Source of the DNA: Spirochaetota bacterium
GTDB taxonomy: Bacteria > Spirochaetota > UBA4802 > UBA5368
Reading direction: 5' to 3'
Assembly: GCA_004297825.1 (NCBI GenBank)
Contig: SCSX01000093.1
Span: 1-64,000 of the forward strand
DNA: 64,000 nt
Shown in pieces: positions 42,863-63,986 of the stretch. The first letter of the stretch is position 1; the number at the start of each line of letters is the position of its first letter. Position numbers and translations under genes: made by a program. The notes under the pieces are model-generated. The model was not told where the DNA came from and did no database searches. It saw nothing but the letters and a program-made list of their open reading frames with translations.

Positions 42863-43059
42863 AGAGTGCAGCTCATGGCGCCCATTCGATGCGGTATGCC
42901 CGGCGGCTCGATTCCCGCGTTCCGCCGGAATCACGACGCATCGTCGCGTTGCCGGACACCTTACAGCATACAACAATCATAGCACCAATTACGTCAACAT
43001 GGATTTATCCTATTCTTTATCTCTTCTATCGCCGTTAATCCTTCATCTCCTCATCTCCT

Positions 43060-43120
43060 ATGAAAGGCGCTACCACGATGAGCGTCGTTCATGAAAGCTT
43101 TTGCGTGAACAAAGCGTATC
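43060..43120 (+). repeat. Dispersed repeat family 2, copy A
   Basis: From ATGAAAGGCGC at 43060 to AAAGCGTATC at 43111-43120, this non-coding stretch matches 57457-57526 and part of 63920-63986. Shared words are ATGAAAGGCGC, GCATCGTTTC-like and GGAACAAAGCGTATC. A truncated copy starts at 43271 (ATGAAGGGCGCCCTC). Confidence 0.55.
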
Positions 43121-43174
43121 GGTGCGGGCGCAGGGTGGGGGAGGGGTGGGGATGGAAAAGATGGTGGGGATAAA

Positions 43175-43312: not shown

Positions 43313-45403
43313 TCACCATCCCATGCCGCAGGCAGTACACGGCGTGCGGAAATCCGGATCGAAGGGAGGCAGGCCGTCGCCGCCCGGGTCGCCCACCCGG
43401 TCGCCGCATCCGATCATGGGCACCATCATCTCGATGCCCGTTCCGTTCATTACGGCGGCGAGGTCGGCTGCGCCGTCGGCGCTGTTGATCATGGCGGCGA
43501 CGTGTACGGACCCAAGGCCGGGGAACGCCCGTCCCTGGTAGACGACGCCTGCCCTCATGAGGCGCACGAGACCCTCGCGTACGGTGACGGACGAGCCGTT
43601 GTACGCAAGGACCGGGTTGAGCGACGCGAGAAGTCCCGCCAACCGACCCGCCTCGTCTAAAGCGCCAATTGAGTGTATCAGCCCCGCCATGTGGTCGTGG
43701 CCCAGGCCCGCCGAGGCATCCGCGGCGTAGGGGGCTATGAGCGAGGCCATGAGCGCGTCCCGCGTGCCGTTCAGGTCGGAGATGATCCTTGCCGTCTTGG
43801 GGACGTCGGACAAATCAAGACCGTTGATGAGGCCCGTGAGGTCGGCGATGTCCGCGCGCGGATCCGCGATCACGGCGTTGATAAAACCGACCAGGAGACT
43901 CGAATTTCCGATCAGGTTTATCAGGCCGGATAATTTTGCGGGATCGCCCACGCCGTCAAGGAGCCGCGCGGTATCGGCGAGGGTCGTGACGTTGTCGATC
44001 ATGTTGACGAGCTTTCCCACGCCGGTCGCGGAGGAGCCAAGGAGAGGATTCCACGAATTGGGACCCTCTATGTCGTTCAGGAGGATGGATACTTTGTGAG
44101 CGCTCGCGACCCTGAGCGCGTTCATGAGATCCGCCATGGCGGTAATCGCGGAAACGTTGTTCATCACGAACACGAGATCGTCGATGTCGGCCGTTCCGTC
44201 TATCACCGCCGCGAGTTTTCTCCCGGCGGCCCCGGCGTCGGCGTTGCCGTCGTCGTCGAGTCTCGATCCGGCCGCGACTCCGTTCACCAGTCCCGCCATG
44301 TGCGCAGGCGTAACGCCGCCCATGATGGTCACGAGCTTCGCCGGGTCTTCCACGCCGTCGACCACGCGCGCCATGGTGCCTATGCTGTTTTCATGGGGCG
44401 GCGCCAGGTCAGGGCTGTCGCACCGCGTCCACACGTCTACGACCAGGGGTATATCGGCGACGGCAAGGGAGCGCATGAGCGAGCGGAGGCGCTCCATGCG
44501 GGTCACGCCGTTGATCATGACAGACAGCTTCCTGATCCAGGTGGTCGTCGGATCGGTCCCGCCTGCTATTACCGGCAACAGCTTGTGGCGCAGATATTCT
44601 ATCTGCGCAGCGTCGTCCCCCGGCCCCTCGACGGTCCTCGCGCCGTTGACCAGGTAATGCATCTTGCCCGGATCGACGACGCCCCGGAAGAGCGCCACGA
44701 CGACGCCCAGCCCCCTGAGCTGCGCGCCGGAGACGATGTCCGGGGTACTCACCGGCGGCGCCGTGCCGGCGTCCATCTGGTCGATGAAAAACACGATATC
44801 CCTGGCGTCGATAACGCCGTTGACCAGCGCGATGATCTTCACCGGGTCATCCAGGTAGACGATGAGAAAGGCGAGCTTTTCCATGTAGGCGTCGTCGGTC
44901 GCGGGATCCGCATATTCGAGCCCCAGGCGGTTGATTACGCTCACGAGCTTTCCGGCGTTCACCATGCCGTCCACGAGCCGCGCCACCGCATCGAGATAAT
45001 TGTAATCGTCCAGGCCGCAGTCCGCGCAGCGGTGCGTTCCGGGGATGTCGTACCTTCCCAGCGGATACCCGGCAACGGGACGGTTGCACCCGAGCCTCCG
45101 GATCGCGCTCATCAGGTGCAGCGTCTTGCGGGCCCCGCATCGCTTCACCACCTCGACCATCTTGTCTACCGAGCATTTGTCTATCAGGTACAGCAGGTGA
45201 TCGATCGGGAGGCCGGGCTCGGCCGGGTCATTGGGATCGTTCAATAGGACGTCCATCTCCCCGGGTCCAAGCTCGCGCATGAACCGGCCCACCGCGGAAT
45301 CGTCCATCGTCGATTTCATCGGTTCGATGTCGCCGGTGCCCATGCAGGAAACGAAGAGCAATGCGGCCAGGATGCACGGTTTCGCAATGGATCGTTTCAT
45401 CAT
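43313..45403 (-). CDS. Helical-repeat lipoprotein C (696 aa), unrecognised family
   Basis: This protein has a lipoprotein signal peptide (lipobox FVSC). Almost the whole length is then short helical repeats of about 13-20 residues with a core L/I/M-L/I/V-N-x-V/I, for example LVNMIDNVTTLAD and KLSGLINLIGN. The C-terminal module FPGLGSVHVAAMIN then GCGDRVGDPGGDGLPPFDPD is shared with the 882-residue paralogue, as are long stretches of its repeats. Several Cys residues (HRCADCG) lie near residue 130. It is the last gene of the operon, and its ATG overlaps the stop of the upstream barrel gene. Function unknown; it is probably an alpha-solenoid on the outer membrane. Confidence 0.75.
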   Translation of the reverse strand: MMKRSIAKPCILAALLFVSCMGTGDIEPMKSTMDDSAVGRFMRELGPGEMDVLLNDPNDPAEPGLPIDHLLYLIDKCSVDKMVEVVKRCGARKTLHLMSAIRRLGCNRPVAGYPLGRYDIPGTHRCADCGLDDYNYLDAVARLVDGMVNAGKLVSVINRLGLEYADPATDDAYMEKLAFLIVYLDDPVKIIALVNGVIDARDIVFFIDQMDAGTAPPVSTPDIVSGAQLRGLGVVVALFRGVVDPGKMHYLVNGARTVEGPGDDAAQIEYLRHKLLPVIAGGTDPTTTWIRKLSVMINGVTRMERLRSLMRSLAVADIPLVVDVWTRCDSPDLAPPHENSIGTMARVVDGVEDPAKLVTIMGGVTPAHMAGLVNGVAAGSRLDDDGNADAGAAGRKLAAVIDGTADIDDLVFVMNNVSAITAMADLMNALRVASAHKVSILLNDIEGPNSWNPLLGSSATGVGKLVNMIDNVTTLADTARLLDGVGDPAKLSGLINLIGNSSLLVGFINAVIADPRADIADLTGLINGLDLSDVPKTARIISDLNGTRDALMASLIAPYAADASAGLGHDHMAGLIHSIGALDEAGRLAGLLASLNPVLAYNGSSVTVREGLVRLMRAGVVYQGRAFPGLGSVHVAAMINSADGAADLAAVMNGTGIEMMVPMIGCGDRVGDPGGDGLPPFDPDFRTPCTACGMGW

Positions 45404-46476
45404 CGCAGCCTCTGGGAGTATCCGATTGTCGCCAGGAAGCCGGTCTGGGAGAAGACGGCGCTCCTGGATTCGTCGTGAACCCGGCGCGTGTAGGTCGCGC
45501 CGTCGATAGTCTCGCTCCAGCTTCCGCTCCGGTTCATGGTCACCGGTGTTTCCTGGCGGATCCAGCCCGCGCGAAGCTCGACGGATCTTCCCCCGCCCAA
45601 ATCGAGGCGGCCGCCGGCGAAGAGTCCCGTGCGCAGGGAGACGCCGTTGAAAAAACTTTCCTGGATTGTGGCGCTCACGCGGCGGTCCTGGCCGGTCGAC
45701 GCCAGGTGGAGGAGGTCGGAGGTCATGGTGATTTTACGCGAGCCGCTCACTATCGCCATGCCCGCTTCAAGACCGGCGAAGGGGACGAGTTTCATTTTCC
45801 AGCTCCCCAGCGCGACGCCGTTTTCGTGGAACCACGCCAGGCTCATGGACGGCGCGAGGATGAAGAGCTCCTCGCGCAGGGCGATCGTGCCGGTGTAGGC
45901 GATGTCCGCGGGTTCGGGGGCGATCGCTTCGGAATTGTGGTAGATAATGGAACCATGATAAACGTGTTTCACGGAATCGGTAACAGGGTACCATGAGAGC
46001 GATACGCCGGCCCGAATGCCGCGAAAGCCCTGCAGGGTTTCGATCGAATCGAGCAGGGGAACGCTTTCGGGCTTTATGCCCATCATGTATTCCAGCGTTA
46101 TCACGGGGTACCCGCCGCCGGCACTCCCTGCCGATGCGTTCACGTTGTCGGAATAATAGACGTGATCGTTGTCGGGGCTGAAGCTCTCGTCCCGGAAAAA
46201 GAGGTCTTCCTTCATCGCCTTTGCATAGCTGTCCCGCCATGAATTTGACATGGAAAACGCGTGGTACCCGGCGCGCACGGAAACCTCAGAGAGGTAGAGC
46301 GCTCCTGCGTATATCCGTGAAGGCCATGTAACCATTGCACCTAAAAAAATCAATGCGGTCGTCACGATTAAACGGCAGCCACGGAGGCTCAGAGACACGG
46401 AGGGTGAATAATCTGTCCGCCTGAATCCCTCCTCTGCGTCTATGTGTCTCTGTGGCCCATTATTCGACATCGTCAT
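45400..46476 (-). CDS. Outer-membrane beta-barrel protein 2
   Basis: This protein of about 358 residues has a delayed signal peptide (RLIVTTALIFLGAMVTW near residue 36). Alternating beta-strand patterns follow, as in outer-membrane barrels, ending in GFLATIGYS. It is a paralogue of the barrel upstream: ALREELFILAPSMSLAW here matches VLNEEVWILSPTFTYDY there. The ATG at 46476 overlaps the stop of that gene (ATGA), supporting this start. Odd: the first 35 residues are encoded by a stretch that resembles an intergenic repeat (46378-46462) and precede the signal peptide, so a downstream non-ATG start is possible. Its stop overlaps the start of lipoprotein C. Confidence 0.7.
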   Translation of the reverse strand: MTMSNNGPQRHIDAEEGFRRTDYSPSVSLSLRGCRLIVTTALIFLGAMVTWPSRIYAGALYLSEVSVRAGYHAFSMSNSWRDSYAKAMKEDLFFRDESFSPDNDHVYYSDNVNASAGSAGGGYPVITLEYMMGIKPESVPLLDSIETLQGFRGIRAGVSLSWYPVTDSVKHVYHGSIIYHNSEAIAPEPADIAYTGTIALREELFILAPSMSLAWFHENGVALGSWKMKLVPFAGLEAGMAIVSGSRKITMTSDLLHLASTGQDRRVSATIQESFFNGVSLRTGLFAGGRLDLGGGRSVELRAGWIRQETPVTMNRSGSWSETIDGATYTRRVHDESRSAVFSQTGFLATIGYSQRLR

Positions 46477-47546
46477 ATCGATATCCCCGCCTGGATGAAT
46501 ATTCCCGTGAGCTGAACCCTGTTCGTCTCCCGGGTCTTAAACGGTTTCCCGTCCACCGTGATCGACGAGAGGGGGAACGAAATCGGCATGACGTCGCCTC
46601 CCATGTAGATGGTGGACGCGCCGTCGACGTCCCGGTGCACGTCCACAAAACCGGCCGATACTCCCATGCGGAGGTCCAGCGTGCAGGAGTCGGAAAAATA
46701 TTTCCGGTAGCCGCAGTATGCTTGAAGGCGGACCCCGGCGTCGTTCACGGCCGTCGACTGCACACTGCCTTCCAGCAGCCGTTCGCTATAGGGATCGGCG
46801 GAGATGTCGGTCCTTCTTGCCCTGAAGCGGATATCCTGTTTAAGCGTGAGGATCATGAGCGACAGGCTCGTCCCCGCGGTCAGCATCCCCCACGGGGCCT
46901 GGAAGAACGAGTAATCGTAGGTGAAGGTCGGGGACAGGATCCAGACCTCCTCGTTCAGTACCATCTGGAGACGGTAATCGCCGTTACCCGACACGGGATC
47001 CACGAATCCGAGTTTCGCCATGGGGCAGTCGTCGATATCCGGCTTCACCTCCTCGTGGATGGTCATGCCCGTGTCGGCGTCTATGGTGTTGAGCTTCACC
47101 ATGCCGGCGAGCCCCAGGGAAAGCTCGAACCGGTGACGGCCGCGCCCGTGCCCGAGGCCGAGCTCCGTCATGGGAAGGACGCTCGTCCGGGCGCGCTTGA
47201 CGGAATCGCGCGCCGTCATCGTCACGGTGGTATCGAAATTGACCGCCGAGAGCCGCACGTCCTTGCCGGAAAAAAAATCCTCGATCTGCCCCAGGGCGTT
47301 CTCGATCTCCGGTCCCATGCGGTAATATCCCGCCGAGGCGCCCAGGCGCGTATACCACTCGTCCGCGCCTTCGCCCTCTTCACGTGCCGGATCGATCCGC
47401 TCGTCGGGTCCCAGCGGCTTGCCCTGCGCGCCCTTATCGAGCCGGCCGCGCGGGGAGGCGTCTTCCGCGGCGCAAGGGAGCGCGGCCATGGATCCGATAC
47501 ACGCCGCGATGAACGCAAGGGCGATTGCCGTGAAGATGCGCTTCAT
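46473..47546 (-). CDS. Outer-membrane beta-barrel protein 1
   Basis: This 357-residue protein has a clear signal peptide (KRIFTAIALAFIAACIGSMAALPCAA). Many amphipathic beta-strands follow, ending in TGIFIQAGISI, a hydrophobic end suited to barrel assembly. Aromatic-flanked segments like WILSPTFTYDYSFFQAPWG support a barrel. The ATG at 47546 follows GAGAGAATC and lies 8 bases after the lipoprotein B stop; a longer frame to 48524 is only a shadow inside that gene. It overlaps the paralogous barrel gene by four bases. It probably forms a channel or scaffold used with the helical-repeat lipoproteins. Confidence 0.75.
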   Translation of the reverse strand: MKRIFTAIALAFIAACIGSMAALPCAAEDASPRGRLDKGAQGKPLGPDERIDPAREEGEGADEWYTRLGASAGYYRMGPEIENALGQIEDFFSGKDVRLSAVNFDTTVTMTARDSVKRARTSVLPMTELGLGHGRGRHRFELSLGLAGMVKLNTIDADTGMTIHEEVKPDIDDCPMAKLGFVDPVSGNGDYRLQMVLNEEVWILSPTFTYDYSFFQAPWGMLTAGTSLSLMILTLKQDIRFRARRTDISADPYSERLLEGSVQSTAVNDAGVRLQAYCGYRKYFSDSCTLDLRMGVSAGFVDVHRDVDGASTIYMGGDVMPISFPLSSITVDGKPFKTRETNRVQLTGIFIQAGISI

Positions 47547-47554
47547 GATTCTCT

Positions 47555-50203
47555 CTACCACATCCCCAGCGCGGTGCAGGGCGCATGGAAATCGGGATCG
47601 AACGGCGGCAGCCCGTTGTTGTCCGGGTCGCCCACGCGGTCGCCGCATCCCACCATGGGCACCATCTGGTCGATGCCTATGGCGTTCATGAGCGCGGCCA
47701 TGTCGGCGGGATCGTCCACCCCGTTCATCATGACGGCGGTGTGCACGGGCCCAATGCCCGGGAAGGTCTGCCCCCCGTAAAGGACGCCGGCCCTGAGGAG
47801 CCGCACCATTCCCGCGCGCTTCGATATGGGAGAGCCAAGGTAGTAGACATTCGCATTCAGCGAGGTGATGAGCGTCGCGAGCTTTCCGGCCGACGATGCG
47901 TCGGTCAGGCTGGTCATGAGGGTTACCATCGTGGCGTATCCCACGCCCTTGGTCGCATCGGCGGCATAGACCGCCATGAGGCCGGCGACGAGCGCGTTGT
48001 TGGTGCCGTTCAGGTCGGTCACGAGCCGGGCCATCTTCGGGATGTCGTTCACCCTGTCGATGCCGTTCATGAGGCCCACCATGTCGGCGGTCGTCGCGTC
48101 GGGATCCGCGATCACGGCGTTGATGAGTCCGACCACGAGGTTCGAGTTCGCCACCTGGTTGATGAAATCCGAGAGCTTGAGCGCCTCGGCGATGCCGTCC
48201 ATGAGCGCGGCGACGTCGGCCAGGCTCGATATGTTGTCGATCATGTTGACGAGCTTCCCGTTCCCCGTGGCCGCGGCCGGCGCGCCGGCGTTCCAGCCGT
48301 TGGTCCCGGTGATGTTGTTGACAAGCGTCGCCATTCGGGGGGTGCTCGCGATGCGAAGCGTGTTGATCAGGTCCGCCATCTTCGAAAAGTTGGATACATT
48401 GTTCAGGACGAACACCAGGTCGTTCACGTCGGTGGTCCCGTCGATCACGTTGTTGAGCTTCTTCCCCGCTGCCTGCGTGTCGTCCACGGTCGCCCCGGTG
48501 TGGACGGGCTGCGCATCGGACCATTGCGATCCGGCGGCAACGTTGTTCACCAGGCTCGTCACGCTGGCCGGCGCCACGCTGTCGATCACCCCGATGAGCT
48601 TCTGCACCTGCGCCGCGTGCTCGACCATGTAGATGAGGGTCACGACCGCGGTGTCGTTGGGCCAGGGGCTCGATCCCGTGTGGATGCCGTTTATGATGAA
48701 GGAAAGATTTGCGAGCACGCTCACATCGTACACGAGGTCTATCATCTTGTCGATGTCGCTCACTCCCTGGACGAGCTCCGCGACTTTTAAAGGCCCCTGC
48801 TGGGCGTTGCTGAGCGAGGTGATGAGCTCGTTCATCTTCGCGAGGTAATTGGCCTGGTTTCCGATGTTGCCGAATATCCGCTGCCCGTCCATGAGCTGGC
48901 GCATGCGCGGTATGGTCGCGAGTTCCACGTTTTCAAGGATGAATCCCAGGTTCTGGGACGGGACCGCGTTCACCCCCGGGTCCGCGAGGCTCGCGATGAG
49001 CGCGATCATGTCGTCGGACTCGGTCATGTCCTGGATGAGGCGCATCATCTTGGTCATGTCGCTCACCTGGTTCATGATGCTTATGAGCTTGGCCGGGTTG
49101 GGCGCCGCGGACAGCCCGTTGATGATGCCGGCAAGCCGCACCATCCCGGAATCGGCGCCCGAGGGGTTGCCGCTCCAGTGCTGCGCGGCCCCCGCCTGGC
49201 CGGCCCATGTGCTGTTGTCTTCCATCTGGTTGATGAGCGCGCTCATCTTCAGGGGCTGGCCGATATTGTCTATCATATAGACGATGGTGCCCGCCGATGC
49301 GACATTGTTGAGGACATAGCCCATCTTGGAGGTGCACCCGGGATTCATCCCGTTCATGATCGCGCAGAGATTGGGCACCGACGATACCGTCTGTACCAGC
49401 GTCACCATCTTGGACATGTCGGTCACGCAGTCGACCACCTCGACGACGTTTTCGGTATCGTTAAGGCCGGAGAGCATGTCCCGGAGCTTCGTGGTCACCG
49501 TCGCCGCGGGGAGCCCCGTCATGATGGTGATCACCTTGTTCAGGTCCCCGGCATGGGAGATGAGCTTGGCCAGCCGGTCGAGCCTTTCCTGGTCCGTGGG
49601 ATTCCCGTCCCCGGTGGTCTCGTCGTGCATATCGCGCGTAACGCCAAGGGCGTTCACCAGGGCGACCAGTTTTTCATTGACCTCGTCGGGCGAGAGGGCG
49701 TTCACGAAATCGCCGATCCTCTGCACCGTGTCCTGGTCGGAGGGCAGGCTCCCGTCGTAGCGGTTCATCGTCATCCAGTGGTCGACGGTGTTCATGAGGC
49801 TCACCACGCGCGCGGCGCCCAGGCCCGTTTCGGAACCGGCGGGATAATCGCTTCCCACGATGGCGATGAGCTTGTTCATGTCGGATATGATATTCACCAA
49901 TAGGATCAGGTTGGAGACGCCCACCCCGTAGGAGAGCAGGTCCATTTCGCCCGTCCCCATCTCATCGTAGAGAATGGCGGTCTTTTCCTGGCCGATTCCC
50001 GCAACGAGCCGGTCGTACATTTCCGACGAGGTCAGCCCGCTGTCATGCTCCCGGCTTTCGCCGTAGCGCGTCGCCGGCCCGTCCGTCGGCTTGGCGCATC
50101 CCGACTGGACGACCGTAACCGCCAGCAGAAGCGCCACAAACATCATCGCCGATCGGCCCCGAATACCCGTCCTGGTTTTTTTACCGTGCATGTTTTTTTT
50201 CAT
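47555..50203 (-). CDS. Helical-repeat lipoprotein B (882 aa), unrecognised family
   Basis: This protein has a signal peptide with lipobox VQSGC. An N-terminal module (GIGQEKTAILYDEMGTGEMD, then GVGVSNLILLVNIISDMNKL) is shared with the 1282-residue paralogue. Dozens of short repeats with cores like LVNMIDNISS, KLSDFINQVAN and VGLINAVIAD follow. The C-terminal module is FPGIGPVHTAVMMN then GCGDRVGDPDNNGLPPFDPD. The D-x-x-K and L-I/V-N spacing suggests an alpha-solenoid of single helices. A GGAGGGTC site precedes the ATG. It lies 8 bases before a barrel gene. I know of no named family with this pattern. Confidence 0.75.
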   Translation of the reverse strand: MKKNMHGKKTRTGIRGRSAMMFVALLLAVTVVQSGCAKPTDGPATRYGESREHDSGLTSSEMYDRLVAGIGQEKTAILYDEMGTGEMDLLSYGVGVSNLILLVNIISDMNKLIAIVGSDYPAGSETGLGAARVVSLMNTVDHWMTMNRYDGSLPSDQDTVQRIGDFVNALSPDEVNEKLVALVNALGVTRDMHDETTGDGNPTDQERLDRLAKLISHAGDLNKVITIMTGLPAATVTTKLRDMLSGLNDTENVVEVVDCVTDMSKMVTLVQTVSSVPNLCAIMNGMNPGCTSKMGYVLNNVASAGTIVYMIDNIGQPLKMSALINQMEDNSTWAGQAGAAQHWSGNPSGADSGMVRLAGIINGLSAAPNPAKLISIMNQVSDMTKMMRLIQDMTESDDMIALIASLADPGVNAVPSQNLGFILENVELATIPRMRQLMDGQRIFGNIGNQANYLAKMNELITSLSNAQQGPLKVAELVQGVSDIDKMIDLVYDVSVLANLSFIINGIHTGSSPWPNDTAVVTLIYMVEHAAQVQKLIGVIDSVAPASVTSLVNNVAAGSQWSDAQPVHTGATVDDTQAAGKKLNNVIDGTTDVNDLVFVLNNVSNFSKMADLINTLRIASTPRMATLVNNITGTNGWNAGAPAAATGNGKLVNMIDNISSLADVAALMDGIAEALKLSDFINQVANSNLVVGLINAVIADPDATTADMVGLMNGIDRVNDIPKMARLVTDLNGTNNALVAGLMAVYAADATKGVGYATMVTLMTSLTDASSAGKLATLITSLNANVYYLGSPISKRAGMVRLLRAGVLYGGQTFPGIGPVHTAVMMNGVDDPADMAALMNAIGIDQMVPMVGCGDRVGDPDNNGLPPFDPDFHAPCTALGMW

Positions 50204-50404
50204 TTGAGACCCTCCAGTTTTATTTTCACCCCTCCCCCTTGACGGGGGAGGCGGGGTGGGGGTGATGAAGCCCGGTTTTATTACCGCTCATCCTGCCCAT
50301 CAAAGAATTCTCATCAAGAAACGCGCCTCACCCTCCCCTGTCCCCTCCCCTCAAGGGAGGGGGATGTGGATGGTCGCTTCTCCGGAATCAATAAAGCATT
50401 TGTT
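50204..50404. repeat. Palindromic repeats between operon genes
   Basis: CTCCCCC/GGGGGAG around TTGAC (50232-50250) and CCCCTCCC/GGGAGGGG around a short centre (50342-50363) form two G/C-rich hairpins in the gap between the zincin and lipoprotein B genes. They may attenuate transcription or come from dispersed repeats. No coding frame is supported. Confidence 0.5.
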
Positions 50405-53257
50405 TCATTCTCCTGTGCACCCGCCGCCCAGGTTATTCTCCACGCAATCGATGTTCCAGCGAGACAGCCGCGCGTTATATACGGTCGATGTAAACAGGTA
50501 TGAATGTCCGGTACCCAGGTCCGCCGATTTCGCGAAGGCGACGCCCTGGGGCTCCAGCATGAAAATCGCCGGATACGTATATGCGTTTCCCACGGGCTCC
50601 TGCGTGGGTCCGTCAAGATTCGTCTCCCACTGGGAGGTGCCCCCTCCTATCCAGCCCCCGAAGTTTCCCGACGCGATGCCCCAGCGCGCGATCCGCTGGT
50701 TACGCCGGTCCGCGATATAGAGCCACATGCCGTCCGCGGTCACATCGCCGGGGTAGTTGAATCGTTTTCTCTCCTGCGCGGCGCCGGCGGGTGTCGCGCC
50801 GTCGTGCCAGCCGTCGTCCCCGCCGCCTATCCATGCCGCAGCCGGGTCGGCTCCGGTCGAACCGTTGAAACCCGCGCGCGTCCACCGGGAGACGCGATGG
50901 TTCCCCTCGTCGGCCACGTAGAGATATCCGCCCTGCGCGACGATGCCGCGCGGATAGCTGAAATAATTCCTGGCGCTTCCCCGCTGGCCCGAGAGCGTCG
51001 TCGCGGCGGTGTCCCATGAGTCGACGCCGTTCCCGATGAATCCCTCGTAGCGTCCCGTCGCGAGGTTCCGCCGCGACACGACGCTCGAGCCGTAGCAGCT
51101 CACGTAGAGGAATCCCGCGGATTCGTCGATCGCCACGCCAAAGGGGCTGTTGAACGACTTCGCGTCCATGGAGTAGGGGAGGTCCCAGGGCTCTTCCATA
51201 GACAGGGTCTGCCATGCGTCGTCGTTCGGGCTTCCCAGCCAGGCGACGAAATTCCCGTCACGGTTGCGCTTCACGATGCGATGATTGTTCCGGTCGGCCA
51301 CATAAATGAAGCCGCTCGAATCGACGGCGATTCCCTGGGGCGCGTTAAGGCTTCGCCGGCAGAAGTTACAGGCAGGCTTTCCCGCCGTCATGTGCCATCC
51401 GTCGTCCTCGCTCCCGTCGTCGGCACAGTTAAGGCTCTTGCTCCCCATCCTTCCGGCGAAGGCGCCCGTGCCGGCGTTCCACCGAGACACGCCGTGGTTG
51501 ATCGAGTCCGCGACGTAGACGTAATTGCCGTCGCCTCCATGTACGCTTTGGAGCGACAGTGCCGTGCCGGTCGTGCGGTAAAACCAGCTGTCCGCATTGC
51601 CGGTCCTCGCACCGGGGCCGCGCTGCCATCCCGACTTTCCCTCTCCCACCCACGAGGCGAGGTTGCGCGCGTCCCAGGGAAGCTGTCCCGTGGAGAGCCT
51701 TTCCCCGCCGTAGTTCGGATTGTAGATCATGAAGTGATACGTTTCGCCCGCGAAGAGGCTCATGGTCGCGTCGTAGTCGTGAATCGACATGTGTGCGCCG
51801 CTCTCGCCGGCCAGGCGCACCAGGACGATCTTCAGGCCCCGGTCCATGCCCTGGTTGAGCGGCGTATAGGATTCGTTCGTCGATGGAACATACTCGTGGT
51901 AGACGAACGAGGCGGGCAGGAGCTCCACCATGCCCTCGCCGGAAAGCGGGAGCGAGTTCTCGCGGAAGGCGAGTCCCGCTTCGCCCTTCTTCCCGATCCC
52001 GGCGCCCGTGTAGCTCAGGTCGTATTTCCGCGAGGGATACGTTCCGTCGCCCAGGTCCACCGCGGCGCCCGATTCGTCCAGAAGCGATTCGAGATCCCTG
52101 CCCGCTGCATAGAGCCAGTTGGTGATGACCCAGTCGCCGAACATTCCGGAAAAATCCTGTCCCCCGTTCCAGAAGGAAAACTCCCCCAGCACCCGGTCGA
52201 CGCCGTAGACCGATTCATCGGGCTCCGTGACGAAGGCCTCCATGATCGCGAGGTCCCCTGGCGCGGTGCCCGCGCGGTGCCGCATATAATTGAAAAACAG
52301 GTTCGTCAGTATATAACCCGCAAGCGGATTTCCCGACGAGTTCATGTCCAGCAGCGACGGCGACGAGGCTACGAGCTGCTGCACAAGGGGGAGACAGTAC
52401 TGTTCAAGGCGCTCGGCCTGTCCCGCGGCGGACCCGGCAAGCATCCCGGGCGACTGCTCCGCGAGTCCCTCGGAAATCCACATCGTGTGTTTTTTCACCG
52501 CCCCGTCCAGGACGCGCCGGTAGTACGTGAACAGGTGCGACAGCTCATGCAGCGCGGCCTCAACGAACAGGGTCTTCGCCTTCTCCGTGTCGCCCCCAAA
52601 TGCCGCGCCGTCATAGAAGGGATGGAGGTCCAGGTAGACGATCTGTATTTCGTTCGATCTGCCTTTCAGGGTTTCCGCGGTTTCCAGGTCCCCCAGGTTC
52701 CCGGTCGTTTCGATAAGCTCCGGGTGCCCGTACAGCGCCGCGGTGAAATCGTCGGCGAACAGGTCGCGCGGCGCGAAGAAGCCGCTCACGTACGCGGGAT
52801 CGGTCGCCGCGTAATCGTCGCGGATGTCGTACGCCAGGAGCACCGTCCTTCCCGTGTCCTGCGTCGATGGGCATACCCCGCCGCCGTACACCGCTTTGAG
52901 ATTTTCAAATGCGGGCTCTATCCGGGTGAGGAGCGCCCCGGCATCGGCCGCCGGCATGATATCGTTCTTTCCTGTTTCACGGTAGAGCACGAAATGCCCG
53001 GACACGGCGATTCGTTCGGCGGAGAGGCGGTAGTGGGCCGATACTCCTTCGGGCGCATCGGCGCGCCGGTCCTTCACCCAGAACTCATGCGTCGCGGGTC
53101 CCCCCTCGGGGCAGCCGTCTTTTTCCGCCGATCCCGGCGGGCATGCCGCGGGGTCGGGAACGGGAAGGCCCGAGTGCGAATCGGAACGGGAACCGCCCCC
53201 GCACATCAGCAGGGGAAGCAGCAGGGCGAGCAGCGTTGTCGCGAGTGTTCTTTTCAT
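50405..53257 (-). CDS. Zincin-like metallopeptidase with NHL propeller (lipoprotein)
   Basis: This 950-residue exported protein has a signal peptide with lipobox LLMC. The N-terminal domain is a gluzincin-type peptidase: HELSH (His237, His241) with a probable third ligand Glu263 in SEGLAE, as in M30/hyicolysin-like enzymes. The C-terminal half (about residues 570-950) has NHL/YVTN-type repeats such as GIAVDSSGFIYVADRNNHRI, PRGIVAQGGYLYVADEGNHR and PGDVTADGMWLYIADRRNQR, typical of a propeller. It may process a surface or secreted protein. It lies between two helical-repeat lipoprotein genes on the same strand, 125 bases after the larger and about 200 bases before the smaller. No strong ribosome-binding site is seen. 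Confidence 0.8.
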   Translation of the reverse strand: MKRTLATTLLALLLPLLMCGGGSRSDSHSGLPVPDPAACPPGSAEKDGCPEGGPATHEFWVKDRRADAPEGVSAHYRLSAERIAVSGHFVLYRETGKNDIMPAADAGALLTRIEPAFENLKAVYGGGVCPSTQDTGRTVLLAYDIRDDYAATDPAYVSGFFAPRDLFADDFTAALYGHPELIETTGNLGDLETAETLKGRSNEIQIVYLDLHPFYDGAAFGGDTEKAKTLFVEAALHELSHLFTYYRRVLDGAVKKHTMWISEGLAEQSPGMLAGSAAGQAERLEQYCLPLVQQLVASSPSLLDMNSSGNPLAGYILTNLFFNYMRHRAGTAPGDLAIMEAFVTEPDESVYGVDRVLGEFSFWNGGQDFSGMFGDWVITNWLYAAGRDLESLLDESGAAVDLGDGTYPSRKYDLSYTGAGIGKKGEAGLAFRENSLPLSGEGMVELLPASFVYHEYVPSTNESYTPLNQGMDRGLKIVLVRLAGESGAHMSIHDYDATMSLFAGETYHFMIYNPNYGGERLSTGQLPWDARNLASWVGEGKSGWQRGPGARTGNADSWFYRTTGTALSLQSVHGGDGNYVYVADSINHGVSRWNAGTGAFAGRMGSKSLNCADDGSEDDGWHMTAGKPACNFCRRSLNAPQGIAVDSSGFIYVADRNNHRIVKRNRDGNFVAWLGSPNDDAWQTLSMEEPWDLPYSMDAKSFNSPFGVAIDESAGFLYVSCYGSSVVSRRNLATGRYEGFIGNGVDSWDTAATTLSGQRGSARNYFSYPRGIVAQGGYLYVADEGNHRVSRWTRAGFNGSTGADPAAAWIGGGDDGWHDGATPAGAAQERKRFNYPGDVTADGMWLYIADRRNQRIARWGIASGNFGGWIGGGTSQWETNLDGPTQEPVGNAYTYPAIFMLEPQGVAFAKSADLGTGHSYLFTSTVYNARLSRWNIDCVENNLGGGCTGE

Positions 53258-53382
53258 CGATTCACCGGTTCTGTGTGCGCCCGCGGCAGAATCCCCGACA
53301 CGGGGGGCCGATACAGCGGGAAATTAGCGTATCAGCGCCCCGTTATGCGACATTTCCTCTTCGCGTCCGCGACGATCGACGC

Positions 53383-56300
53383 CTAGTGGTTCGGCGGGTA
53401 CGCGTATTCCGGATAACGCTGGCCGCTTTTGTAGATCACCGCCGGCTCATCGTCCAGCGGGCACACCCGGCACTTGGGCCAGTTCTTGTCGCTCGTTCCC
53501 GCGTAGGGCGGATAATGCACGGTGCCCGCCCAACTCAGGAGCCAGCCCAGGAATCCGTCCCCGTTGATCGCGTCCCACGCCGACGTGATCCCGGGATCCA
53601 CGCTCACCACCAGGCAGAATGACGCGCCCGACCATATGACCGAATCCACCTGTGGCGAACCGCAGATGGACGTCGAGATAGTCTCATTGTAGTAATTAAG
53701 GCAGTTGTACGTGTTGCCGGGCGAGACCTGGTAGGAGTGGGTGTAGAGTCCGTTCACCCATGCGCCGCCCGTGTAATGCGGCCCGTTGATCTGGATGGTC
53801 TCGGTCGCGGGAAAGTACTGCGTCGCGCCGCCGTTCCTGTTTTCGAGCGACTGGTTGTTCACGACGCCGAACCCGCACACCATTGCGGGAATCGCCGTGC
53901 GCCAGCCGAAATTTGTAAGCATGTTGTAAAGCCTTGGACCCGTTTCGGAATTGAGGAGGCGGGCCATGCGAACGGGGCCCACGCCGGGAAAGTAATTGCA
54001 GTTGCCGGTCCTGCTTCCCCCTTCGCCTATGCCCGTGCCGAAGTGCATCATCCCCGCCATGGCGTCGTAGGAAAGCTTGTTCATCAGGTAGAGCGTGGAG
54101 CCGTACACGACGTTGTTCGTGTTATGCATCGTGTTCAGGAACGCGGCGGTGACCTCGCCGGGCAGGAGGTTGATCAGGTTGATGAGCTGCTGGATGTCCT
54201 GGTACCCGTTCAGGATGGCCACGGTCTTCATGGTGTCGGTGACGTTGCCCACGATGATCGCCACCGGATCCGGGTTGTCCATGCCCAGCATGAACTCGGA
54301 CAACCGCTTCCTCCCCGAGGAGCAGGGCTCAGTCAGCAGGTGGTCCCAGGGCGCGCTCAGCTCGTAGCCGGACTGGATGCCGCACCTGTTCACCTCGTTG
54401 ACCAGGGTAATGGCGCGCGCCTGTTCCGCGGGGGTGCGCGACTGGCCTGTGACGTAGTTCCATCCCAGGAGATTGATGACCCCCCAGACTATGGACAGGT
54501 CGCCCACGCTTTTTATCCCGTTCCCCTTCTGGACCGAACCGCCCACCTCGTTCATGAGCCCCACGAGGGGGTCGTAGTCCGCCTCGGGATACCCGGGAGG
54601 GCCGTTCAGGATGTTCATCATGAGCGAAATGTTCGCCACGTTGTTGATCGTATCGGAGAGGTAGCGGACCCGGTTCATGCCGCCGCCGGATTTTGCCGTG
54701 CCGTTCTCATTTATTTTTGCAAGGAGCCCTGTGAGCTTGTCCATGTCCTCGATATCGTTGAGTATCGTGATGAGGTTGGATGCCCCGGCCGGCGTCACTA
54801 CCTCGTTGACGAGCACCGTCATGCGCCCAAGGGCGTCGTTCTCGGCGGTGGAAAGGGCGTCGGTATAGCGGGGCGAGGGCGCCGTCCTGCCCGGGTAGCT
54901 CTTGTCGCCCATGCAGTCGAGCACCCTCCTCAGGCGCGTGACGTCCAGGCCGGGCTCGTTGAGTATCGACAGCATCAGGTTCACGTTGGTCAGGCTGTTG
55001 ATGACGTCGGAGATGTACCGGATGCGCTTCGCCGTGCCGATGAGCCCCGTGAGATAGGGCAGGCTGCCGGAATTGACGCCGTTGATGAGCGCAACCGTGG
55101 CGCCCGTCCCGTTGCCCGACATATCGTTGATGAACGCGGTGAGGCGCCCGAACTTGTCGGACGTGCAGTCCCCGGAATCGCAGAGCGGGTCGGTATAGCG
55201 CGCGGCGTCGTTATGCGCCCCCAGGCTTTCCATGATAAGGACCATCCGCGTGGCGCCGTCCGGGTTCGTGGTGTTTTTAAGCCCGCTCACGATCCTGCCC
55301 ACGTTGGCCGCCCCCGTGCCCCCCCCGTACGCGGAGATGTCGTTCAGCATTCGCACCACGTGGTAGCCCACGGTGAGCCCGGCCCCGGGGGCGTCGCCGT
55401 CGGCGATCTCGTTGATGACGTTGACGAGCCGGGAGCCCGCCGTGGGGGCGCTCGTCGCGCCCAGTGCGGACACGTTCGTGCCGGCAAGATCGAGGTTGTT
55501 GAAGATCGCCGGGACGTAATCGGTGCTCTCTACGCCGTTCATGACGGTGAGGATGTCGGCGAGGGATATGCCGTCCAGGAAGCGCATGAGCGCGACTGTC
55601 CCCGCGGGCGTCACCCCGTTGACAATCCTGTAGAGCTTCTCGCCGGGGTTCCCCGCAAGGCCGTCGACCATGCCGTAGACCTTCGACACGTCCGCGATGA
55701 AATCCATGATATCGGTCATCTGGCGCGGCGCGTCGCCCTCGAGCCCGTTTATCACGCGGGTGAGGGTGTCGATGTCGCTCAGGTTGTTCACGATCGACAC
55801 GATCCTGGGTTCCACGACATCGGGGTTGGGCGGATATACGGTATGGTTGACCATGTACACGAGATTATCGAGCCCCGCGGCGTTAAGACTGTTGAGCGTT
55901 TCCGCGATGGTGGTTTCGTGGGAGAGCGAAAGCTGGTTCAGGAGAATGGCCACCTTCATGTAAGGAAGCAGATCGGCGCCGCGGTTCCCGGGAAGGACGA
56001 CCTTGTCGATGTACACGGCATCTTCGCCCGCGCTGGTGGAGGCATCCTTCACATACTCCCACCGCAGCCTGTGCACCCCGGCGGCGTACGGGCCGTAGGT
56101 CAGCTCGGCCCAGGGAAGCTCGCCGGAATATCGGTCCACGAGGACGTCGTCGACGTAAAATTTGAGATAATCCCAGTTGGTCTCGGTGCTCACCTTTCGC
56201 GCGAAGCTGATCGTTCCCGCCGTCGTGAACCGCGTCACGATCTCGGCCGAGGCCGTCTCGTTGTCGTCCATGGGATTCAGGGTCGCAACGCCCGCGCACA

Positions 56301-57225
56301 GCGATCTGCTCCCGCTGAAGGCCGTGGACGAGGTGACCTGCCAGTGTGCGTTTCCGCTCACGGCCCAGTTGTTATTCGCCTGGGGAAGCTCGAAATCGTC
56401 GTCGTTGCTGATCACCCCCGTGACCGCCAGGCCGTTAATGACGAAGGCGAGTCGCGCGGGATCGGTCGTATGGTTGAGGGTCGCGACGAGCGCGCCCGTG
56501 CCGTCGTCGGGATTGCCGAAATTGGTGATGTTGTTCATCACCCCGGTCACGTTTATCAGGTTGGTGGTCCCGTTAATCACTGTCACCAGGTCCTTCATGT
56601 CGTCGGTCTGGTTGAAGATGCGCAGGAGCGTTTGCAGGCCCGCCGGCGTACAGGCGACCTGGTTCAGGATGGTGGGCATGGTGCTCTGGTACTCGTCGAC
56701 CAGGGCCACCACCATCGTGAGCCGCTCCATGCCGGTCTTCCCGTTCCGGTCTGTCACCCCGAGGATTATCTCCTTGAAGTAATTCATGTCGTTGACGTTG
56801 TTGATGAGGTTCGCGATTTTTCCCAGCGTATCGTCGGAGGGCGGATTCTCCACGCCGATAGCCTGGTCGGTGTAATTCATGAGGTCCACCACGTCCTCGG
56901 GAGAGATCGCATGGGGCTCACTGAGGAGCGCGACGAGCTTGTTCACGTCCGAGATGATATTTATCAGGTGGATCATGTTGCTCTGGCCCATGCCGTAGGC
57001 CAGCCGGTCGAAACTGTACCTGCCCATGCCCTCGACAAGGATATCGTACCGATACTGCCCTATCCCGGAAACGATCGCCCCCTGGTCGACGGGCTTGCCC
57101 TGGTCCGCCTCCTGGTTCCGGGAGTAGGCAGTGTCGTGCCTGGGGCTTAAAATGCATGACGAAAACGAACCCAGTACGATTGCGAGGGAGAGATATGCGA
57201 TGAAGAGCCTGATTGTGGTCGCCAT
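53383..57225 (-). CDS. Helical-repeat lipoprotein A (1280 aa) with inserted beta-sandwich domain
   Basis: This is the largest member of the family. It has a signal peptide with lipobox SFSSC. The N-terminal module (GIGQYRYDILVEGMGRYSFD, then GMGQSNMIHLINIISDVNKL) and many repeats (for example LVTVINGTTNLINVTGVMNN) match lipoprotein B. About residues 275-405 form an inserted beta-sandwich (SGSRSLCAGV, KFYVDDVLVD, GVHRLRWEYV), like a carbohydrate-binding or MAM-type domain. The C-terminal module FPGVGPVRMARLLN and MVCGFGVVNNQ is followed by an extra Cys-rich tail of about 130 residues. The ATG at 57225 sits 6 bases after AGGAGGT, better than the one at 57231 that abuts it. It is the first gene after the promoter at 57361-57389. 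Confidence 0.75.
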   Translation of the reverse strand: MATTIRLFIAYLSLAIVLGSFSSCILSPRHDTAYSRNQEADQGKPVDQGAIVSGIGQYRYDILVEGMGRYSFDRLAYGMGQSNMIHLINIISDVNKLVALLSEPHAISPEDVVDLMNYTDQAIGVENPPSDDTLGKIANLINNVNDMNYFKEIILGVTDRNGKTGMERLTMVVALVDEYQSTMPTILNQVACTPAGLQTLLRIFNQTDDMKDLVTVINGTTNLINVTGVMNNITNFGNPDDGTGALVATLNHTTDPARLAFVINGLAVTGVISNDDDFELPQANNNWAVSGNAHWQVTSSTAFSGSRSLCAGVATLNPMDDNETASAEIVTRFTTAGTISFARKVSTETNWDYLKFYVDDVLVDRYSGELPWAELTYGPYAAGVHRLRWEYVKDASTSAGEDAVYIDKVVLPGNRGADLLPYMKVAILLNQLSLSHETTIAETLNSLNAAGLDNLVYMVNHTVYPPNPDVVEPRIVSIVNNLSDIDTLTRVINGLEGDAPRQMTDIMDFIADVSKVYGMVDGLAGNPGEKLYRIVNGVTPAGTVALMRFLDGISLADILTVMNGVESTDYVPAIFNNLDLAGTNVSALGATSAPTAGSRLVNVINEIADGDAPGAGLTVGYHVVRMLNDISAYGGGTGAANVGRIVSGLKNTTNPDGATRMVLIMESLGAHNDAARYTDPLCDSGDCTSDKFGRLTAFINDMSGNGTGATVALINGVNSGSLPYLTGLIGTAKRIRYISDVINSLTNVNLMLSILNEPGLDVTRLRRVLDCMGDKSYPGRTAPSPRYTDALSTAENDALGRMTVLVNEVVTPAGASNLITILNDIEDMDKLTGLLAKINENGTAKSGGGMNRVRYLSDTINNVANISLMMNILNGPPGYPEADYDPLVGLMNEVGGSVQKGNGIKSVGDLSIVWGVINLLGWNYVTGQSRTPAEQARAITLVNEVNRCGIQSGYELSAPWDHLLTEPCSSGRKRLSEFMLGMDNPDPVAIIVGNVTDTMKTVAILNGYQDIQQLINLINLLPGEVTAAFLNTMHNTNNVVYGSTLYLMNKLSYDAMAGMMHFGTGIGEGGSRTGNCNYFPGVGPVRMARLLNSETGPRLYNMLTNFGWRTAIPAMVCGFGVVNNQSLENRNGGATQYFPATETIQINGPHYTGGAWVNGLYTHSYQVSPGNTYNCLNYYNETISTSICGSPQVDSVIWSGASFCLVVSVDPGITSAWDAINGDGFLGWLLSWAGTVHYPPYAGTSDKNWPKCRVCPLDDEPAVIYKSGQRYPEYAYPPNH

Positions 57226-57360
57226 ATTCATACCTCCTGTAGTTCGCCGGGCCTCATTCGAATCGATCGCTCAAGAGATGCTGTGTGCGCACGGCCTTCT
57301 GGACATCTTTCACCCGGAATCCGCGGATGAAGGATCAAATACTTAACAAGGTTAAGGTAA

Positions 57361-57389
57361 TATATACCATGAGTCTATGTTATGGTCAA
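57361..57389 (-). promoter_or_regulatory. Promoter of the helical-repeat lipoprotein operon
   Basis: On the minus strand TTGACC (57389-57384) is followed after exactly 17 bases by TATATA (57366-57361), close to the sigma-70 consensus. Transcription would begin near 57354 and run into the ATG at 57225 with a leader of about 130 bases. Confidence 0.6.
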
Positions 57390-57456
57390 CAACAAATACC
57401 ATAAAAAGTTTATTTTTTTATAAATATACCATGTGTTCATATTATCATCCTTCCCC

Positions 57457-57526
57457 ATGAAAAGCGCCCTCGCGACGAGCATCGTTTCAGAAGGTCGTGA
57501 AGCTTTATGCAGGAACAAAGCGTATC
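57457..57526 (+). repeat. Dispersed repeat family 2, copy B
   Basis: ATGAAAAGCGCCCTCGCGAC... to GGAACAAAGCGTATC (57457-57526). It matches 43060-43120 at both ends and 63920-63986 in its first half. It lies in the gap between the lipoprotein promoter and modA and does not encode a protein. Confidence 0.55.
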
Positions 57527-57660
57527 AGCCGCGGCGCGGGGAGTGGGGGGAGAGAAATTCATTGACTGGTATTTTTACTATGTTTAATTTGACCTAATAA
57601 CTCATATATATCTTTTGATTCAATAGTATGTTCGCAAGAGATTGCATCAAGGAGAGCACA

Positions 57661-59983: not shown

Positions 59984-61563
59984 GACGTGGAACCATGCTC
60001 GATCTACCCATACCGGCATACTTTTCCTATAGTGTGCACCATGCAGTAGAGCATCCATTGCACATTGACCTTCTTTTTCGTACGCAGCGTAAACCGGTTC
60101 AATCCCTTGGCGCTGCACATGTTCGCGAACACCGGTTCGATGATTCCCATGCGGGCGCTGTATATTTTCCTGCCTTTAAGCGTATCGATCTTCGCCTTCA
60201 TCTCTTCCGAGAAGTTGCGGTTGAAATATTTCTCGATCACATACAGACTCCGCTGCCGGGTGTTTACGGAACGGAGGCATTTCTCCCTCCTGGAACATTT
60301 TCGGCAATCAGAGAGTAGCGCACGGTACACCCTCCCGGTAGTGTTGTTGAACGTCTGCCGGGTATGAAACTTCAAGATTCTTTTCTCGGGACAGACAAAG
60401 GTATTGGATTTTATGAAGTAAGTGAAATCTTCTTTCGTGTAAAGAGACCGCTTGGGGGGTTTATAGCGATCCCTGTCTATAAAACGAGGATCGCGTTTCC
60501 GGAACTGCTGGTCAGGTATGTAGGCGTCTATCTTTTCCGAGGACAGATACTTGATGTTCTCCTCGCAGAACGAACCCGTATCCGCAATCAGGCGTTTCCC
60601 TTCAAAAAAACGCTTCCCCAGACCCGCGTACCGGGCATTCTCCTTGGCCGTCGACACCAGCGGCTTTAAAAGCTCGTACTCTTGTCCGTTCCCAAAGGCC
60701 TCTGCCGCTACGACCACCTGGTGCTTGTCGTCGGCAAGCGCCATGCCGTTGTAGCCCTGTATTACACCCTTCGATGTTTTAATCTTTGCGCTTTCGTTAT
60801 CGGTGATATTGCTTTGTTTCTCCCCCTGGCGGGTTTTCACTTTCGGTTTCTCCCCTGCCAGGAAAGAATCGATCTTCCCGATTTTCTGCTTCATCCGGGC
60901 CACGCGTCTCTTTTCCCGCTTTTTGGCTTCTCTGTCTCGCGAATCATTTTTCCCGTGCTGCTTCACGAGCATGCGGACTGTTTTCTCCAGCTTGTCCCGC
61001 TTCCTCTTCAAGTCGGCAAAGGTGCCGCTGTATTCCTTGGACGCGTTTGAAGGCAATTTGCACCCATCGAGCGCAAAGGTGGTGCCACCCAGGAGATCGA
61101 GCTCGACGCAGTAAAGGAGCACATCAGAGAACAATTGCCGTACTTCGTTTTTCATTGAGCGAATGAAGTGCGCAATCGTAGTGAAATCCGGTTCAGTTGC
61201 TGCCGAAAGCGCTTTAAACACCACGTTCTCCCTGCACAGACGCTCGATTCTTCGCGAAGAGATCACTCCTCGCGCGTAGGCCAGGAGAACGATCTTGAGT
61301 AATATCTTCGGATCGTATGCGGGTGCACCGGTTTCCTCGTTGTTGAAACGCTTTTCAAGCGGCGAGATATCGATCTTTTCTTCAACGATGAAATGGATCG
61401 TGTACTCAAGCGTTCCCGGGATGATTTGTTCCTTGAAATTGACGGGAAGAAGGAGAGATTGGGCGTAATCGTAGTTCTTATAACGAGGCATGGCGTACCT
61501 CATTGCGTGAATTTGTTTAATGATGGGGTATTGACTCTGAAAAGTCAATTAATTTCCACGTCT
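59984..61563 (-). mobile_element. IS1182-family insertion sequence
   Basis: Ten-base terminal inverted repeats AGACGTGGAA (59984-59993) and TTCCACGTCT (61554-61563) bracket one transposase gene, giving an element of about 1.58 kb. Length, single frame and transposase type fit IS1182. I could not prove a target duplication. Its right end cuts into the attC of an integron cassette, so it inserted after the cassette array formed. Confidence 0.85.
60004..61503 (-). CDS. IS1182-family transposase
   Basis: This protein of about 499 residues is a DDE transposase. The N-terminal DUF772-type domain has MPRYKNYDYAQSLLLPVNF and YDPKILLKIVLLAYARGV. The catalytic acidic residues are probably in FALDGCKLPS, LIADTGSF and the late IEPVFANM. 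A Cys-rich CRKCSRREKC block near residue 410 is typical of the family's insert. A TTG at 61548 would add 15 residues; the ATG at 61503 (then 61491, PRYKNYDY) looks more natural. The gene appears intact, so the element may still be mobile. Confidence 0.9.
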   Translation of the reverse strand: MRYAMPRYKNYDYAQSLLLPVNFKEQIIPGTLEYTIHFIVEEKIDISPLEKRFNNEETGAPAYDPKILLKIVLLAYARGVISSRRIERLCRENVVFKALSAATEPDFTTIAHFIRSMKNEVRQLFSDVLLYCVELDLLGGTTFALDGCKLPSNASKEYSGTFADLKRKRDKLEKTVRMLVKQHGKNDSRDREAKKREKRRVARMKQKIGKIDSFLAGEKPKVKTRQGEKQSNITDNESAKIKTSKGVIQGYNGMALADDKHQVVVAAEAFGNGQEYELLKPLVSTAKENARYAGLGKRFFEGKRLIADTGSFCEENIKYLSSEKIDAYIPDQQFRKRDPRFIDRDRYKPPKRSLYTKEDFTYFIKSNTFVCPEKRILKFHTRQTFNNTTGRVYRALLSDCRKCSRREKCLRSVNTRQRSLYVIEKYFNRNFSEEMKAKIDTLKGRKIYSARMGIIEPVFANMCSAKGLNRFTLRTKKKVNVQWMLYCMVHTIGKVCRYG

Positions 61564-63399: not shown

Positions 63400-63954
63400 A
63401 TGAAAATCGAATTACTTCGTGATTTGCTCGATACATACGCCCACAAGGGCAGCCCAAAGTATATTTCAAACCTGGATCTGATGGAGTATTTCAAATCGAA
63501 AAAAAGCGAAATCGATTTCCATGATTTCTCCAGGGTGCGCGATTATTTTCTAAACGAACTAAAAGTTACAAGGTATGCGTTCACGGAGATCTCAGCATGG
63601 TTCAAAGACAATTCACCGGGTTCCGATAAAGAGCGGGACGCGAATAGCATCGAACCTCCCGGCATGGAGCGCTTCAGGGAGGCGCTCGTCCTCAAGCGCT
63701 ATTCCCGCAAAACCGTCAAAGCCTACCTGGGAGCGCTGCGGCGCGCGAACGCCTGGTTCGTCAGAGAGAAGGGAATATCGGCCGACCGGATATGTACCGG
63801 CAACGCGCGGGAGTATTTTCTCTACCTCACGGCGGAAAAAGGAGTATCGGTATCGCTTGTGCGTATGCACCGCTTCGCGCTCGCCTCGTATTTTAAAATC
63901 GTCATGGACCGCGAGCTCGATGAAAGGCGCCCTCACGTTGCGCATCGTTTCTGA
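63400..63954 (+). CDS. Truncated integron-integrase-like tyrosine recombinase (N-terminal part)
   Basis: This 184-residue protein has an unusual N-terminal extension (about residues 1-85). A core-binding domain follows (about 90-175): GMERFREALVLKRYSRKTVK, AWFVREKGISADRI and EYFLYLTAEKGVSVSLVRM. These align by eye with the same region of IntI1 (LHYSLRTEQAY, FLSWLANERKVSVSTHRQA). The catalytic domain with Arg, His, Arg and Tyr is absent, because the frame ends at 63952 inside a dispersed repeat that begins at 63920. A GGAGG site precedes the ATG. Position and divergent orientation relative to the cassettes suggest it was the integrase of this integron. It could be an unrelated XerC/D-like fragment. 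Confidence 0.7.
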   Translation: MKIELLRDLLDTYAHKGSPKYISNLDLMEYFKSKKSEIDFHDFSRVRDYFLNELKVTRYAFTEISAWFKDNSPGSDKERDANSIEPPGMERFREALVLKRYSRKTVKAYLGALRRANAWFVREKGISADRICTGNAREYFLYLTAEKGVSVSLVRMHRFALASYFKIVMDRELDERRPHVAHRF

Positions 63955-63986
63955 AAAATGGAAAGCCTCTTACCGGAACAGCGAGT
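63920..63986 (+). repeat. Dispersed repeat family 2, copy C, at the end of the integrase-like gene
   Basis: ATGAAAGGCGCCCTCAC at 63920 and GCATCGTTTCTGAAA further on match 57457-57490, and CCGGAACA resembles the later part. The integrase-like frame runs into it and stops 35 bases later. This implies that the repeat inserted into, or replaced, the rest of the gene. Confidence 0.5.

Follow-up and report, generated by a model that had tools for sequence, protein, structure and literature searches.

How do large proteins of spirochaetes reach the outer membrane or its surface? Spirochaetes have no known homologs of Slam (surface lipoprotein assembly modulator), and a system still to be discovered may carry out translocation across their outer membrane (review, PMC7857515). 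A six-gene operon in the window analysed here, a 64,000-nt stretch of a Spirochaetota contig (SCSX01000093.1), encodes giant lipoproteins next to predicted barrels and is a candidate for how this is done. As far as searched, the gene set is confined to one order and this genome, and it therefore cannot be a general spirochaetal solution.

All six genes lie on the minus strand, from 57231 down to 43313, in the order LipA, zincin-NHL, LipB, Bar1, Bar2 and LipC, the genes and common direction that a sequence-only reading had listed. The longest open reading frame of LipA gives 1282 aa; the second ATG (57225), 7 nt after an AGGAGG, gives 1280 aa (53383..57225), the length of that reading if this ATG is the start. 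There follow the zincin-NHL lipoprotein (950 aa, 50405..53257), LipB (882 aa, 47555..50203), Bar1 (357 aa, 46473..47546), Bar2 (358 aa, 45400..46476) and LipC (696 aa, 43313..45403). The junctions from LipA onwards measure 125, 201, 8, -4 and -4 nt, which bears out the tight spacing claimed for the last four genes. At the front, direct reading finds a promoter-like TTGACC-17-TATATA with a TG before the -10 (57361..57389, minus strand; 9 of 12 consensus matches). This element was missed by a consensus promoter scan whose rule requires a T at the last position, so that the good promoter of the earlier reading is a plausible one only.

Most of the sequence of the three Lip proteins is built from an amphipathic unit of 13 residues, which a converged position-specific model gives as K-[LM]-[VA]-x-[LI]-[IL]-N-G-[LV]-x-D-x-x; the commonest spacing between units is likewise 13 residues. 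At one threshold LipA, LipB and LipC hold 44, 40 and 29 units against shuffle means of 4.7, 4.0 and 2.6 (maxima 10, 10 and 7), an excess that is partly built in, since the shuffles preserve composition only and the model was trained on LipA-C and related proteins, yet is large. Alpha periodicity is strong (z 8.2, 8.4 and 5.5, respectively) and strand periodicity falls under chance, which points to helical, solenoid-like proteins. Lipoprotein signals are seen in all three and in the zincin, that of LipB (VVQSGC) being atypical. The description of three big lipoproteins is borne out, and periodicity indirectly supports their being made of short helical repeats. An AlphaFold model of LipB from an alignment of the three window sequences gave no usable fold (pLDDT 36); its short helices, often one per unit, are consistent with the repeat and are not evidence for it.

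The earlier reading had named a match of the repeats to a known family as a test, and none was found in the databases searched: LipA, LipB and LipC have no match in Pfam, NCBIfam, PHROGs, PADLOC or PDB, and no Lip member matches the Pfam models of the known alpha-solenoid repeats TPR, HEAT, ARM and Sel1. The Lip proteins would add a large helical-repeat family without described relative. LipA also carries a predicted beta-sandwich insert (~residues 270-425), judged by eye, with no Pfam or PDB match. LipC is a paralog of LipB (42% identity over 547 aa) with its own N-terminal motif. In a tree of 28 Lip proteins the LipA and LipC clades each have an SH-aLRT of 100 and LipB is not resolved as a single clade; as the three window proteins fall in three lines, the trio must have existed before these genes diverged among the compared genomes. 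Length varies widely through inserts, LipC ranging from 696 to 1641 aa. Runs of GxGYTxxPxV-type repeats, with no Pfam match, stand between the helical units in the LipC of G144 (L048:7941-12356) and the LipB of G182 (L038:9579-12143).

Bar1 and Bar2 are predicted outer-membrane beta-barrels, a fold suggested by sequence periodicity. The beta-alternation z is 1.4 to 4.4 among Bar1 relatives, with window Bar1 at 4.4, like OmpA and FadL. Bar2 relatives give 0.5 to 2.4 and the Bar1-like BarX proteins 0.9 to 3.9. These values compare with those of the reference barrels OmpX, LamB, OmpA and FadL (1.6 to 4.5), and six non-barrel E. coli proteins give -2.1 to 1.4; the test is crude and the ranges touch. 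The window copy of Bar2 is weakly periodic (z 0.5-0.6); seven Bar2 relatives reach 1.6-2.4. Many Bar relatives share with OmpA/OmpX/FadL-type barrels not only strand alternation but also a C-terminal Phe, whereas at the sequence level the best Pfam match in the Bar families is a weak one of a single Bar2 relative to OMP_b-brl (E 0.012). Bar1 and Bar2 themselves have no match in Pfam, NCBIfam, PHROGs, PADLOC or PDB, and a single-sequence AlphaFold model of Bar1 gave no usable fold (pLDDT 32). The two are probably paralogs, as had been proposed, although the relation is invisible in pairwise BLAST (E 0.17) and emerges only when profiles are compared (probability 76%, E 2e-5).

The remaining protein was described as a zincin-NHL lipoprotein, and its lipoprotein signal and profile matches agree. 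Its N-terminal half matches the M30 metalloprotease lugdulysin in two collinear stretches (profile E 8.8e-12) and contains an HExxH at 237-241, with E263 downstream in WIxEGxAE; H237, E238, H241 and E263 are invariant in four aligned homologs and, by reading, the catalytic residues are also kept in Turneriella parva. NHL repeats, predicted to form a propeller, lie in the C-terminal half (79.8 bits against a Pfam cut-off of 20). Unlike hyicolysin and lugdulysin, the window protein is predicted to be lipidated and is fused to the NHL propeller, and of four family members a single one matches Pfam M30, weakly (best E 0.0072).

Profile search of 393 Spirochaetota genomes, some of them incomplete, detected Lip relatives in 11: this genome and members of two families within the order to which T. 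parva belongs. Within that order LipB/C relatives occur in 12 of 18 genomes, and 11 of these 12 also carry Bar1 or BarX; the exception, G223, is 54% complete. The six genomes of the order that have no Lip have no barrels either (p 0.0004 on the assumption of independent genomes, which their shared ancestry violates). No Bar1 relative was found in the remaining 30 genomes of T. parva's class, and Bar1 occurs in this genome only among the 46 of the window's own class. Peptide-pattern scans of genome and viral contigs gave no relative, and the patterns were probably too specific, as family-carrying genomes turned up by profile search. A phage search with LipB and a plasmid search with Bar1 and the LipA insert gave no match; defence and phage families were rejected, the Lip and Bar proteins matching nothing in PADLOC or PHROGs.

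The sequence-only reading had asked for a profile-type search for the gene set and for the gene order in relatives, and both gave a positive answer. In T. parva the arrangement is LipA, one intervening ORF, zincin, LipB, Bar1, Bar2 and LipC, with overlaps of 4 to 13 nt at the last four junctions; the order from zincin to LipC is kept in G179, and in T. parva and G179 these genes mostly have 4-base overlaps. Wherever a relative's contig covers all of Bar1-Bar2-LipC, the three genes are contiguous (overlapping or <=10 nt apart). The zincin adjoins LipB in five genomes. In G182 zincin-LipB and Bar1-Bar2-LipC lie on two contigs that both end inside the set, in G089 they form two separate loci, and the locus of G155 holds Bar1-Bar2-LipC alone. 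Gene order and overlaps are common to different Spirochaetota classes at roughly 30-43% protein identity.

Turneriella species carry a second version, LipB-BarX-Bar0-Bar1-Bar2-LipC, without the zincin. As BarX is Bar1-like (98%) and Bar0 Bar2-like (97.5%), the barrel pair has been duplicated there. The idea of a duplicated two-part unit of lipoprotein and barrel therefore stands in so far as LipB and LipC, and probably Bar1 and Bar2, are paralogs, but the duplication visible in Turneriella is one of the barrel pair. In three loci a similar-looking membrane protein follows the second-version LipC (L104:264-2153, L105:4517-6385, L048:6001-7878); the T. parva copy, the only one scanned, has a sulfatase domain (E 2.7e-38). 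LipA also has a second setting in Turneriella relatives (L043:3055-11349, L046, L039, L044 and L115), in which small lipoproteins follow it, joined at several of the loci by a membrane protein that weakly resembles UbiA; a divergent Bar1 relative lies at L046:13829-14791, one gene from a LipA in G089.

Judged by these searches, the gene set matches no described system. Five of the six proteins fall outside every described family, and for this reason we regard the operon as a new gene system, whereas a mechanism of the type proposed below, a barrel with a partner lipoprotein, is already known. Slam with its TbpB-type lipoproteins offers the nearest layout, an outer-membrane barrel gene beside lipoproteins that it may bring to the surface (PMC7857515). 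Such adjacency is found in the operon; the export itself is what we infer. The Bar pair differs from Slam in consisting of two short barrels without an N-terminal TPR domain, and the window lipoproteins are helical-repeat proteins whereas Slam substrates are beta-barrel proteins. The SlipAM barrel domain (PF04575) has no match in the Bar1/Bar2 families at E 0.1, nor has the TPR domain in the operon proteins or Bar families. A genome-wide Slam search was empty, but its positive controls gave no match either and it is uninformative on absence. SusC/SusD systems are surface lipoprotein/barrel gene pairs for nutrient uptake and resemble the operon in this pairing; the Bar barrels, of ~330 residues, have no TonB plug, and neither TonB-dependent receptor nor SusD domains are matched in the operon proteins or Bar/Lip families. 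Two-partner secretion finds no POTRA domain or TpsA-type partner match in the same proteins and families. The earlier statement that no known secretion, adhesion or uptake system was recognisable agrees with all three comparisons.

The reading that we tentatively favour, at somewhat less than an even chance, is that the operon encodes a complex of the outer membrane whose barrel pair exports giant lipoproteins or holds them at the surface, comparable to Slam or SusCD in its working but without sequence relation to either. Bar1 and Bar2 would be unlike barrels acting jointly as a dedicated partner of the neighbouring lipoproteins, as export channel, holder or both. LipA, LipB and LipC would each be an extended scaffold in which short helices are stacked, anchored through a lipid at the N-terminus and probably exposed on the outside, with inserted modules that may touch something in the surroundings. 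The zincin-NHL protein would be a protease on the same surface, its substrate either the Lip proteins or an external protein. This complex is supported by the conserved Bar1-Bar2-LipC adjacency, with zincin-LipB ahead in T. parva and G179, by the co-occurrence of Lip and barrels in the T. parva order (11/12 vs 0/6), by the joint presence of the barrel pair and large lipoproteins in the duplicated version, and by beta-alternation in the Bar and alpha periodicity (z 5.5-8.4) in the Lip proteins. The large length variation through inserts is expected of exposed proteins, and the conserved catalytic residues support the protease role. The weak periodicity of window Bar2 counts against the complex, as do the separation of LipB from the barrels in G089 and G155 and the lack of the zincin in the second Turneriella version, which indicate that the parts can separate. 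A stronger form, a two-barrel, spirochaete-specific export apparatus for giant surface lipoproteins that is unrelated to Slam, is unlikely; if true, it would be an instance of the lipoprotein 'flippase' of the outer membrane that, according to reviewers, spirochaetes must have. T. parva is cultivated and free-living and carries the lipoprotein/barrel set in fixed order, which makes the idea directly testable there.

The same inventory, a single operon with a protease, lipoproteins of binding type and two barrels, would also suit scavenging and uptake, as would the neighbourhood of zincin and LipB in five genomes. The zincin would then degrade protein at the surface, the Lip proteins would bind the resulting fragments and Bar1/Bar2 would serve as entry channels in a SusCD-like manner without TonB. 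We consider this rather unlikely: no family match to TonB-dependent receptors, SusD or porins was obtained, the second Turneriella version dispenses with the zincin and the operon holds no transporter genes.

Spirochaetal lipoproteins may also face the periplasm, which counts against surface display, and the inner leaflet is the default fate of outer-membrane lipoproteins. The Lip proteins might then form an envelope scaffold that links the barrels, as anchors like OmpA, to the cell wall or the periplasmic flagella. However, no peptidoglycan-binding domain was found in them by Pfam-type domain searches, and the patchy distribution and large variable inserts fit an outward role better; we consider such a scaffold unlikely. 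That the operon merely co-transcribes unconnected surface proteins is very improbable: LipA stands apart from the barrels in its second gene setting in several genomes and the loci are split in G089 and G155, but order and overlaps have been kept across classes of the phylum at the protein identities given above.

As to its origin in this genome, horizontal gain and many losses are both possible. The operon has a G+C of 59-64% and a GC3 of 74-87%, similar to the neighbouring HD-GYP gene, and composition thus shows no trace of a recent transfer. In the sister species G001 (88% complete) the HD-GYP gene lies beside a different neighbour. An IS-type DDE transposase (Pfam DDE_Tnp_1_6, DUF772) is encoded at 60004-61548 (minus strand), ~2.8 kb from the operon front. 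Repeat comparison shows direct repeats of ~100 nt (~73% identity over the aligned core) that flank the operon on the minus strand, one upstream of LipA (57447..57550) and one beyond the operon end, upstream of the HD-GYP gene (43050..43144); they are the only two genome matches at the sensitivity used. The upstream regions of LipA and the HD-GYP gene are alike over ~300 nt (score 50.5 vs a shuffle maximum of 28). One possibility is a regulatory region common to the operon and the c-di-GMP phosphodiesterase-like gene; another is a dispersed repeat of low copy number. A weak partial third copy is seen at 63920-63955.
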